From NCBI RefSeq assembly GCF_026421305.1, contig NZ_JAPJBQ010000003.1, positions 62,001-126,000 of the forward strand: a stretch of DNA of 64,000 bases, in the 5' to 3' direction. A program made the position numbers and the translations under genes. The stretch's first letter is position 1; every line of letters begins with the position of its first letter. This document shows, one piece after another, positions 50,607 through 54,615 of this stretch. The notes under the pieces are model-generated. The model was given only the letters and a program-made list of their open reading frames with translations. It was not told where the DNA came from and did not search any database. Origin of the DNA: Dyella silvae (GTDB taxonomy: Bacteria; Pseudomonadota; Gammaproteobacteria; Xanthomonadales; Rhodanobacteraceae).

Positions 50607-52346
50607 GTGCTGAGCACGTGGTTCAAGTTCAAGCAACTGCGGCATTTTGCGGTGGGCGGCATGGCGGCGTTGGTGCTGGCCGGCTGCGCCACGGTATCAG
50701 GCGGGTCGGGGCACCGGACAGAAGCCTCCAACCAACCGCTGGGTCGGCTGGTCGTGGCCACCCCGGATGAAGACCATGACCTGATGGCTCAGCTACTTGC
50801 GGGCGAAATGGCGCTCACCCGCACCGATCTCAAGGCATCTTCGGCGGCGTACTCCAGCGCCATGATGCTTTCGAACGATCCCAAGGTGGCCGAGCAGGCA
50901 GCGGCCCTTGCCATTGCCATACGCGACACCGCTGCCGCACAAGCGGCCATCGCCCGTTGGCAGGCGCTGGGCGCCAAGCCCGCCGGGTTGGCCCAGGCGA
51001 GAGCCCAGCTGGCACTGAGTCAGGGCAATACGGATGAGGCACGCCGGCAGCTGGAGCTGCTGGTGAGTACCGGCGACCCGGACGCTTGGCGTCAGTTTGG
51101 GCGAGTGCTGGTGGGCAGCCGCGATGCCGCCCAGGCCTCGCAATTACTCGAGGCCGTGGCGACGCCGCAGCGGCTGCCAGCCGACCCGCAAGCCTGGCTG
51201 GCCATGAGCGAGCTGGGCGACAAGCTGGGGCGCCATGCCTATGCCATGCAGATAGCCGAAGCGGCCGTTAAGCGGTTCGGCACGGCTGAGACCTACGCCT
51301 GGCTGGGCCAGATGAAATTCCGCAATGGCGACAAGGTCGGTGCCAAAGCGTTGTTCGACAAAGCGTTGACCAAGGACCCGAAGAACACGCATCTGCGTCT
51401 TGCCTACGCCACCTTGCTGGGGCAGGGCGGGGATTACGCGGGAGCGGCCCGTTTACTGGACAACGGGCCGCAGGATGCCGACACCTATTCCCTCCGGGCG
51501 GCGCTGGCGGCGCGGGCCAACGACACCAAGACCATCAATCGTCTGTATAGCCAGCTGCAGCGCTCTCCGGAAGACGTGCGCCAGGGCGCTACGTATCTGT
51601 TGGGCCAGCTGGCTGAAATGCTGAATCGCAAGGAAGAGGCGCTGAAGTGGTATGACCAGGTCACCGATGACGACGATCACGCCTTTGACGCCGATCTGCG
51701 CAGCGCCGTGCTGTTGCAGGACCTGGGGCGTAGCGCCGAGGCGCACGAACAGCTGGCGCAGATGCAGACCGATTATCTGGATCAGCCCCAGCTGTTGCGT
51801 CGCGCCTACGAGGTAGACGCCGAGCTGTACATGGATGAGCAGCAGTACGGGCAGGCCGAGCGTGCGCTTTCGCGCGCGCTGCAGGTGACCCCGGACGATC
51901 CGGGGCTGCTTTACAGCCGAGGTCTGGTTTACGCGGAAGAGGGCCAGATCGATCAGGCCGTCAGCGATTTCCATCGTCTGTTGGAAATCAAGCCAGACGA
52001 CACCGACGCCAGCAACGCACTGGGTTACACCCTGGCCGATGCCAATCGTGACCTGGCGGAGGCGCAGCGACTGATTGAGGCCGCTCGTGCGGCGCGCCCC
52101 GACGACCCGGCCATTCAGGATTCCTGGGGCTGGCTGCAGTACCGGCTGGGCCATCTGGACCTGGCGGAAAAGACGCTGCGCGGGGCATGGGCGGCACACA
52201 AGGACGCCGATGTCGGCGTGCATTTGGGCGAGGTGCTGTGGAAGCAGGGTCGTCAGCAAGATGCGCGGCGCGTTTTTGACGAAGTGCGTAAGATCGATCC
52301 GCAAAGCAGTAACCTCAACAACACTCTCAAGCGCCTCAATCCATGA
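50607..52346 (+). CDS. TPR-repeat lipoprotein
   Basis: 579 residues from a GTG at 50607. Lipoprotein signal with lipobox LAGC (Cys27), so it is probably attached to the outer membrane. The rest consists of TPR units, clearest at the C-terminus: DPGLLYSRGLVYAEEGQIDQ, ASNALGYTLADANRDLAEAQ, DSWGWLQYRLGHLDLAEKTL. Such a TPR lipoprotein immediately before lolB is common in this group. It overlaps lolB by four bases (ATGA), hinting at a joint role in lipoprotein handling, though its function is not established. Confidence 0.85.
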   Translation: MLSTWFKFKQLRHFAVGGMAALVLAGCATVSGGSGHRTEASNQPLGRLVVATPDEDHDLMAQLLAGEMALTRTDLKASSAAYSSAMMLSNDPKVAEQAAALAIAIRDTAAAQAAIARWQALGAKPAGLAQARAQLALSQGNTDEARRQLELLVSTGDPDAWRQFGRVLVGSRDAAQASQLLEAVATPQRLPADPQAWLAMSELGDKLGRHAYAMQIAEAAVKRFGTAETYAWLGQMKFRNGDKVGAKALFDKALTKDPKNTHLRLAYATLLGQGGDYAGAARLLDNGPQDADTYSLRAALAARANDTKTINRLYSQLQRSPEDVRQGATYLLGQLAEMLNRKEEALKWYDQVTDDDDHAFDADLRSAVLLQDLGRSAEAHEQLAQMQTDYLDQPQLLRRAYEVDAELYMDEQQYGQAERALSRALQVTPDDPGLLYSRGLVYAEEGQIDQAVSDFHRLLEIKPDDTDASNALGYTLADANRDLAEAQRLIEAARAARPDDPAIQDSWGWLQYRLGHLDLAEKTLRGAWAAHKDADVGVHLGEVLWKQGRQQDARRVFDEVRKIDPQSSNLNNTLKRLNP

Positions 52347-52966
52347 AGCTTTCCATTCGTCTTCTCGCGGCAGCATTGCCGCTGCTGCTGGCTGCGTGCG
52401 TCCACAAAGAAGCAGTGAAGCCCCAAGCGGACTACGCCGTGTTGCTCAACGAGCAGCGTGCCCGCGAGCACTTGCTCGCCAAGACCGATCATTGGGTTTT
52501 GCAAGGCAAGATCGGTGTCTCCGGTGAGGTCAATGGCAAGAAAGATGGCGGCAGCGGCACGCTGACCTGGACCCAGAACGGCGACAACTACGAGTTTGTG
52601 GTGCGCGGGCCAGTGGGTAGCAAGAGCTTCCGCCTGAGTGTGACGCCGGACGGCGCCACGCTTGAAGGGCTCGATGGTGGTCCCCTGCGCAGCCCCGACG
52701 CCGAATCGCTGGTACAGAGCGCCCTGGGCTGGCGCGTGCCGCTGCGCAATTTGCGAGCCTGGGTGCTTGGCATGCGCGCCGATAGCGGCCCGGCTGAGCT
52801 GAAGTTCGGCGCCGATGGCCTCCCCGTGCAGCTGACCCAGGACGGCTGGAACGTGAACTACCCGGCATGGGACACCACGCGCCAACCGGCTGTGCCTTCC
52901 AAGGTGTTTGCGGACAATCCGCCTTATAAGGTGCGGTTGTCGGTGGAGTCCTGGAGCTTCCAGTAA
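52343..52966 (+). CDS. lolB: Outer-membrane lipoprotein receptor LolB
   Basis: 207 residues. Lipobox LLAAC with Cys19. The LolB fold pattern is visible: HWVLQGKIGVSGEVNGKKDG, GTLTWTQNGDNYEFVVRGPV, then ALGWRVPLRNLRAWVLG and NVNYPAWDTT. LolB accepts lipoproteins from LolA and inserts them into the outer membrane. It overlaps the TPR lipoprotein gene and is followed by a repeat element and the GNAT-IspE gene. Confidence 0.92.
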   Translation: MKLSIRLLAAALPLLLAACVHKEAVKPQADYAVLLNEQRAREHLLAKTDHWVLQGKIGVSGEVNGKKDGGSGTLTWTQNGDNYEFVVRGPVGSKSFRLSVTPDGATLEGLDGGPLRSPDAESLVQSALGWRVPLRNLRAWVLGMRADSGPAELKFGADGLPVQLTQDGWNVNYPAWDTTRQPAVPSKVFADNPPYKVRLSVESWSFQ

Positions 52967-52978
52967 CGCCGGCTCTTT

Positions 52979-53110
52979 CCCTCTCCCCTCCGGGGAGAGG
53001 GTAGGGTGAGGGGCCAAGCTTGCGATAAGGCCGCAAAAATCCGGCTCTATCGTCACGCTTCCGCGAGCACCCACCCCTCACCTCGGTCCTCTCCCCTCCG
53101 GGGAGAGGAG
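52979..53110. repeat. BIME-like repeat pair with CTCTCCCCTCCGGGGAGAG palindromes
   Basis: The palindrome CTCTCCCCTCCGGGGAGAG occurs twice, at ~52981-52999 and ~53090-53108. The first is followed by GGTAGGGTGAGGGG and the second preceded by the near-complement CCCCTCACCTCGGT, so the pair forms an imperfect ~33-bp inverted repeat around ~60 bases. It occupies the gap between lolB and the GNAT-IspE gene, and the second copy ends 17 bases before the start codon. Confidence 0.75.
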
Positions 53111-53126
53111 GAAACAGCGAGATCCC

Positions 53127-54521
53127 ATGACGTTCCACATCGAACGCGCCCGCCCCGATCAGGTCGACGCCCTTTGCGCCATCGAACGCGCCGCGGTGGA
53201 GCTGTTCCGCGGCCATCGCGCCTGGCCTTCCTACCGCCGTGTATCGGTGCCGCCCGAAGTGCTGCGCGAGGCGATCGCGCGCGGGTTGGTGTGGGTGGCG
53301 GTGATCGGATCCGGCGAGCCGGTGGGGTTCGTCTGGCTGGACGCGGAAGAAGGCGGCGATGCCATCGGCGTGGCCGAAATGGATGTGCTGCCATCCCATG
53401 GCCAGCGCGGCATCGGCGCGGCCCTGCTCGAGCATGCCTGCGGCTGGGCGCGAATGGCGGGCTACCATCGTGTCGATCTGGGCACGCTGTCGGATGTGCC
53501 CTGGAATGCGCCGTTCTACGCGAAACACGGTTTCGCCGTCGTCGACAAGAACCGCCCCGAATTCGCTTTTGCCCGTGAGCGCGATATCGAAAACGGATTC
53601 CCCGACGACTTGCGCGTGTTTATGAGCCGCCCGTTGGCGCCGCCAGATCTGATGGACTGGACGGTCTGGCCGGCGCCCGCCAAGGTCAACCTGTTCCTGC
53701 GTATCACCGGGCGGCGAGCCGACGGCTACCACGAGCTGCAGACCGTGTTCCGATTGCTCGATTGGGGCGATGAAATTCGCCTGCGCGTGCGCCGGGATGG
53801 TGAGATCCATCGGCTAACCGAAGTGCCCGGCGTACCTGCCGACAGCGATCTGGTGGTGCGTGCCGCCCGCCTGCTTCAACCCCATGCCCCGGAAGGGGCT
53901 GGGGCTGACATCGAGATCGAAAAGCGCATCCCGATGGGCGGCGGCCTCGGTGGTGGCAGCTCTGACGCGGCCACCGTGCTGGTGGCGCTGAACCTTCTCT
54001 GGGGTGTCGGCCTGGACGAAGACACCCTGGCTGAGCTGGGCCGCCAGCTGGGCGCGGACGTGCCTGTGTTCGTGCGGGGACGTTCGGCCTGGGCCGAGGG
54101 GATCGGCGAAAAACTGACGCCAATGGCCCTTCCGGAGCGTTGGTACGTGGTGCTTGACCCCCATGAACACGTGCCGACCGGCGCACTTTTTCAAGCATCT
54201 GAATTGACACGAAATGCGCCGCCAGCGACAATTTCATCCTTTGCTTCGGGCGAAACGGTCGAGAACGCGTTCGCGCCCGTGGTTCGCGCGCGACATTCGC
54301 GTGTGGCTGCGGCGCTGGACTGGCTCGACGGCTTCGGCCGGGCAAGGCTTTCTGGCAGCGGTGCGTGTGTGTTTCTGGAGACGGACTCTCCGGAACGTGC
54401 CGAGGCCATTGCGGAGCGCTGTCCTGCCAGATTCACGGCCCATGTGGCCAGGGGCGAGGATGTCTCTCCGTTACATGTCGCCCTGGCGCGCCATCGCGGC
54501 GTCGACGGGAACGGCAGGTAG
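53127..54521 (+). CDS. ispE: In-frame fusion: GNAT acetyltransferase + IspE (CDP-ME kinase)
   Basis: 464 residues. Residues 1-175 are a GNAT acetyltransferase: [20 protein letters not shown], then acetyl-CoA loop [19 protein letters not shown] and [14 protein letters not shown]. Residues 176-464 are a full-length IspE beginning [18 protein letters not shown], with GHMP loop [18 protein letters not shown] (~270-285) and C-terminal [11 protein letters not shown]. IspE phosphorylates CDP-methylerythritol in non-mevalonate isoprenoid synthesis. No stop separates the domains. The ATG at 53652 where IspE would normally begin has no evident Shine-Dalgarno, and a TGA in another frame (53650-53652) overlaps it, suggesting an ancestral TGATG junction fused by a small indel. 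GAGG lies before 53127. tRNA-Gln follows. Confidence 0.88.
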
Positions 54522-54538: not shown

Positions 54539-54615
54539 TGGGGCGTCGCCAAGCTGGTTAAGGCACAGGATTTTGATTCCTGCATGCGAAGGTTCGAATC
54601 CTTCCGCCCCAGCCA
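54539..54615 (+). tRNA. tRNA-Gln (anticodon TTG)
   Basis: Acceptor stem TGGGGCG/CGCCCCA, anticodon loop TTTTGAT in stem CAGGA/TCCTG giving TTG, T-loop GGTTCGAATCC, encoded GCCA end. It lies between ispE and prs, as in many gammaproteobacteria. Confidence 0.95.

Follow-up and report, generated by a model that had tools for sequence, protein, structure and literature searches.

A conserved fusion of a GNAT acetyltransferase to the isoprenoid enzyme IspE in Rhodanobacteraceae, most likely of single origin and with halves most likely independent in function

Does the joining of two enzymes in one reading frame mean that they share a function? The question is raised by a gene of Dyella silvae found in a stretch of 64,000 nucleotides (the window, which denotes the whole stretch analysed), where a GNAT acetyltransferase runs without interruption into IspE, the 4-diphosphocytidyl-2-C-methyl-D-erythritol kinase of the MEP pathway. 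IspE is essential where the MEP pathway is the only route to isoprenoids. Bifunctional MEP enzymes are represented by IspDF, both halves of which belong to the pathway; the present gene resembles IspDF in that an MEP-pathway enzyme is involved in the fusion, but differs in that the partner is an acetyltransferase which outlives the pathway. The initial annotation knew of no described GNAT-IspE protein, and literature searches covering titles and the beginnings of abstracts likewise found no earlier report of an IspE carrying an acetyltransferase.

The translation of positions 53127-54521 (forward strand) confirmed a single open frame of 464 codons with no internal stop, composed of a GNAT domain and a complete IspE as originally annotated, and closed by the stop codon at 54519-54521. 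The GNAT half (residues 1-175, 53127-53651) scored over the gathering cut-offs of Pfam Acetyltransf_1 (residues 45-136, 46.4 bits versus 20.7) and Acetyltransf_7 (residues 53-137, 47.9 versus 27). At the junction (53622-53663), which was read in 30 loci, its C-terminus (M)SRPLAPPDL passes in frame into the beginning of IspE. The IspE half (residues 176-464, 53652-54518) contains GHMP_kinases_N (242-318) and GHMP_kinases_C (382-436), both over cut-off, and matches the equivalog model TIGR00154 over residues 179-453 with 274.4 bits (cut-off 138.7). It also retains the glycine-rich GHMP loop and the catalytic residue 186 and D311, the loop and the catalytic Lys/Asp being taken by us to have their usual roles.

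A structure model of the fused protein, based on 11 sequences, falls below pLDDT 50 in some stretches of the IspE half. The best structure matches of this half were the IspE enzymes of E. coli (1oj4) and Klebsiella (8ckh), with which it shares the full-length domain, the active-site residues and the GHMP loop; unlike stand-alone IspE, it lacks a conserved start codon at its beginning and carries the 175-residue GNAT at its N-terminus. The predicted model of the acetyltransferase half matched several GNATs, the nearest solved structure being PA2271 of P. aeruginosa (PDB 9cr5; E 6.6e-21, TM 0.90 by target length, 33% identity), which is a stand-alone chain of 174 residues and not fused to IspE. 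A literature search naming PA2271 together with acetyltransferase found no paper. The element QRGIGA at residues 93-98 is presumably the acetyl-CoA loop.

This IspE was the only match over the TIGR00154 cut-off in the genome of the window, in which IspF and dxr are present and HMG-CoA reductase (HMGR) is absent; the gene should therefore be the sole source of CDP-ME kinase in the cell. Two dxr-type matches were noted in the same genome (G000:C11:489147-489533 and G000:C16:197577-197963).

The fused gene is preceded on the same strand by lolB (52343-52966) and followed by tRNA-Gln (ttg, 54539-54615), which lies between it and prs. A promoter-like site, TTGACA-17-GACAAT, occurs inside the IspE half at 54204-54232 (+), upstream of the tRNA and prs, and is one of two such sites in the region against a mean of 0.2 after shuffling. 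A motif matching it by eye has remained after deletion of ispE in all six relatives that carry the GNAT alone, and this sigma-70-like promoter may drive tRNA-Gln and prs. The interval from lolB to the fused gene holds two copies of the palindromic repeat CTCTCCCCTCCGGGGAGAG, at 52981-52999 and 53089-53107; with at most one mismatch it was found in the genome 74 times in forward and 68 times in reverse orientation.

The fused frame was present in all 20 searched genomes of the genus Dyella, the other 19 being 87-93% identical to the window. Among 233 genomes of Rhodanobacteraceae, both halves stood in one frame in 137, as counted from the rows of the search; two of these genes (G036 and G144) are cut by contig ends and one (G214) was reported in two pieces, although it is open in the DNA. 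Seven of the 137 rows reported one stop (G108, G117, G121, G124, G186, G189, G207), which on reading the DNA proved to be the gene's own end in the first four. In all, the frame was read from the DNA at 58 distinct loci (62 rows, four of them repeats), and G108 also reads through. Six further genomes of the family have the GNAT alone or, in G035, with a remnant of IspE, and 19 showed no match to the fused protein at 1e-25. The remaining 71 matching genomes were obtained by subtraction; all 13 matches listed for them start no earlier than residue 156, and the E-values of the others are not strong enough for a match covering both halves. No other fused protein appeared among the matches listed for 24 genomes of the order outside the family, nor among those listed for 369 genomes of the class.

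The gene order TPR-lolB-[GNAT]-ispE-prs is common to the loci that reach that far. In unfused relatives, which share the lolB-ispE-prs neighbourhood, ispE directly follows lolB, and in 17/17 unfused loci 5-54 bases separate the aligned end of LolB from the start of the aligned IspE. A FastTree tree was calculated from LolB, Prs, TPR and IspE (the last omitted for eroded or broken copies), after removal of 14 near-identical Dyella loci, of repeat entries of a genome and of G036, which is cut by a contig end. It grouped all 50 GNAT-bearing loci as a single clade (support 0.95) that excluded the unfused loci, 17 in number, of which 14 came from the family and three from the outgroup. The support for this one clade indicates that insertion and fusion of the GNAT most likely happened a single time. 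The fusion is real, old and conserved, and most likely of single origin.

We consider it probable that the GNAT-IspE protein is bifunctional and that its two halves work independently of each other, the fusion having formed when the GNAT was inserted once between lolB and ispE and the frames became joined. The insertion would have taken place in an ancestor of many Rhodanobacteraceae genera, and with the frames joined, IspE would be made only by translating through the acetyltransferase. The IspE half would produce the CDP-ME 2-phosphate of the MEP pathway, and the GNAT half would acetylate, from acetyl-CoA, a substrate unrelated to isoprenoids. The gain may be shared expression, or the fusion may be a fixed accident, rather than a means of channelling or regulation.

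That the halves are most likely independent is suggested above all by relatives that have turned to the mevalonate route. HMGR without IspF was found in 32/233 genomes of the family, distributed over four genera (g17, g37 and those of G095 and G224), and 12 more genomes have both. In the genus g17, whose members are mostly named Dyella, HMGR is present in 16/16, IspF absent in 16/16 and dxr absent in 9/16. They include D. acidiphila (G106), D. acidisoli (G107), D. choica (G109), D. dinghuensis (G110), D. flagellata (G111), D. flava (G112), D. lipolytica (G113), D. mobilis (G114), D. monticola (G115), D. nitratireducens (G116) and D. psychrodurans (G117), as well as G035, G108, G118 and G119. 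G224, a Rhodanobacter MAG of another genus, likewise has HMGR and lacks IspF. The HMGR gene of D. acidisoli sits with diphosphomevalonate decarboxylase, IPP isomerase and a gene resembling phosphomevalonate kinase below cut-off. HMG-CoA reductase and mevalonate kinase were themselves seen there in one frame of 764 residues (L102:4147-6438; TIGR00532 and TIGR00549 both over cut-off, with a radical-SAM gene nearby), and a frame of 759 residues, putatively of the same make-up, occurs in G035 (L103).

All 17 genomes of the fused clade with HMGR and without IspF (16 of g17 and G224) have kept the GNAT half, while their IspE half looks near intact in three (G113, G118, G120), is eroded in eight and is gone in six. 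The active site is eroded in G106, G108, G110, G112, G114, G119 and G224, and least so in G117; the GHMP loop is altered in eight relatives having HMGR and lacking IspF. In the six GNAT-only genomes the acetyltransferase has a stop of its own where the junction used to be, giving it 173-179 residues, and G035 still carries a fragment of ispE, out of frame. On the tree of g17 these six losses represent about two separate events, so the independent evidence from truncation is small.

The GNAT half has remained constrained throughout. Of its 57 near-invariant columns across 47 fused loci, 52-56 are kept in the 17 genomes. Pairwise dN/dS values (GY94 estimates) of the GNAT-only copies were 0.04-0.09 in 15/15 pairs, each rejecting 1, although the five pairs with G035 have dS of 2.4-4.1. 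In the best 26 of 45 g17 pairs, chosen for lowest combined dS, the values were 0.05-0.14 for GNAT and 0.10-0.36 for IspE, the latter being 0.04-0.08 in 5/5 pairs of the genus Dyella. A branch model of 20 taxa, excluding G224 and the GNAT-only genomes and with the optimiser held to 80 iterations, gave for IspE 0.139 on the background, 0.173 on g17 internal branches and near-intact tips and 0.286 on eroded tips; the corresponding values for GNAT were 0.131, 0.098 and, on the tips with eroded IspE, 0.092. Since the GNAT is constrained after the loss of both IspE and the MEP pathway, its function should need neither, and its survival beyond IspE favours a role outside isoprenoid synthesis.

The persistence of a full-length IspE frame in 11 of the 17 genomes could also mean that in the mevalonate-switched clade the eroded half is now a pseudoenzyme, serving GNAT as a structural or regulatory partner, and we regard this as rather unlikely. 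Each of the eight eroded copies retains 57-77 of the 88 IspE columns that are near-invariant among 64 functional sequences, and their losses concentrate in 16 active-site columns (72/128 cells versus 121/576 elsewhere). These columns, which we assume on the basis of E. coli IspE structures, were picked after the alignment had been seen, and the cells are not independent, so that the enrichment is only indicative. Outside the active site the losses amounted to 101/400 in the first 150 residues and 20/176 after them. The catalytic Lys is kept in 7/8 and the Asp in 4/8 of these copies, so that loss of kinase activity is itself inferred. The dN/dS of 0.286 on the seven eroded tips does reject 1 (2dlnL 218.6), but tip rates may include time before function was lost.

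A comparison with dxr, which is not fused, bears on the same point. In five of the same genomes (G106, G108, G110, G112, G117; L189-L193, no IspF) the dxr frame is still open but its presumed catalytic motifs are eroded; in G113 the gene looks intact, and in G118 (L195) a frame change splits it. The dN/dS of dxr was 0.075-0.25 in 12/15 pairs, the other three being saturated and ignored, and slow decay is thus not special to the fusion; nor does an open but eroded IspE half prove a role by itself. In 11/11 pairs given for both genes dN of dxr exceeded that of the IspE half, in favour of the pseudoenzyme, but the normal rates of the two enzymes may differ. Moreover, six relatives do without the IspE half. 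It is doubtful that, after the mevalonate takeover, this half became a selected, catalytically dead partner of GNAT, with all stages from live kinase to loss still extant.

The idea that fusion shields IspE from loss was also considered. HMGR-bearing, IspF-lacking genomes keep the frame in 11/17 cases of fused and 0/15 of unfused ancestry (Fisher 1e-4), the latter being 14 genomes of g37 and G095, none of which gave an ispE match at 1e-25; in G061 and G075 of this group a TIGR00154 search likewise found nothing over cut-off. Because each side amounts to only about two lineages and unfused dxr also persists in eroded form, shielding is not claimed.

Functional coupling appears improbable, whether the GNAT were to modify IspE or a different MEP component by acetylation or to adjust the isoprenoid flux by sensing acetyl-CoA. 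Retention of the fusion in 137 genomes and the presumed essentiality of IspE where MEP is the sole route would be in its favour, but strong constraint on GNAT has continued after the loss of IspF, often of dxr, and in six genomes of IspE. In addition, a stand-alone GNAT 39-42% identical occurs outside the family in G048 and G057, which belong to another family of the order; there it adjoins a gene resembling glmU by eye. The initial suggestion that acetylation is tied to the MEP pathway is thus not supported, given that 17/17 genomes keep the GNAT, six of them without complete IspE. It is nevertheless possible that GNAT has an isoprenoid link in the fused, MEP-using majority, which would be compatible with the losses in the pathway-switching minority.

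IspE might also, or mainly, be produced as a separate protein from an internal start within the fused frame, for which the conserved Met166 (VFM-SR) is the candidate. An in-frame ATG no more than 45 nt upstream of the junction exists in 62/62 rows (58 distinct loci). The same Met is, however, kept in 6/6 GNAT-only genomes with no in-frame IspE downstream, so that GNAT itself explains its conservation. Pairing with the anti-SD at this Met is on average (-2.5) not stronger than at background codons (-3.7) and does not support the start, a test of little power because the pairing at the GNAT start is also weak (-2.8). We consider such a start highly improbable.

The initial annotation had also pointed to a TGATG overlap at 53650-53654, with no Shine-Dalgarno sequence before it, as a coupling signal. 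The overlap is present in the window, but it is a coincidence private to that genome: a start codon stands at this place in 1/58 distinct fused loci (1/62 rows, including four repeats), and in the first reading, where the frame was kept in 30 loci, the junction codon was not a start in 29. In contrast, the GNAT start is ATG in 56/58 distinct loci. That two genes coupled in translation were joined recently by a frameshift, or by an error of sequencing, as the overlap might suggest, is practically out of the question, because the fused frame occurs in 20/20 genomes of the genus and, beyond it, in 15 more genera and some genomes of g17, the junction codon varies among relatives (GCC, GGC, ACC and others), and dN/dS is far below 1 for both halves in the five genus pairs tested; an indel or assembly artefact is rejected as the cause. 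The search for the same architecture in relatives and the comparison of junctions that had been proposed at the outset thus found the fused frame family-wide and no conserved start at the junction. Of the alternatives first offered, the real bifunctional protein is borne out as far as sequences can tell, and neither the recent indel nor the tie of acetylation to the MEP pathway has stood.

The ispE model of NCBI still passes an eroded copy, that of D. acidiphila scoring 150 bits against the cut-off of 138.7, and pathway reconstructions for these species can therefore be wrong. The interest of the locus lies mainly in the graded natural experiment of IspE decay beside a retained GNAT. The family offers a natural series, in which the IspE half is fused and working, fused and eroded, or gone, and this makes it directly testable whether fusion means shared function; the evolutionary answer here would be mostly no.
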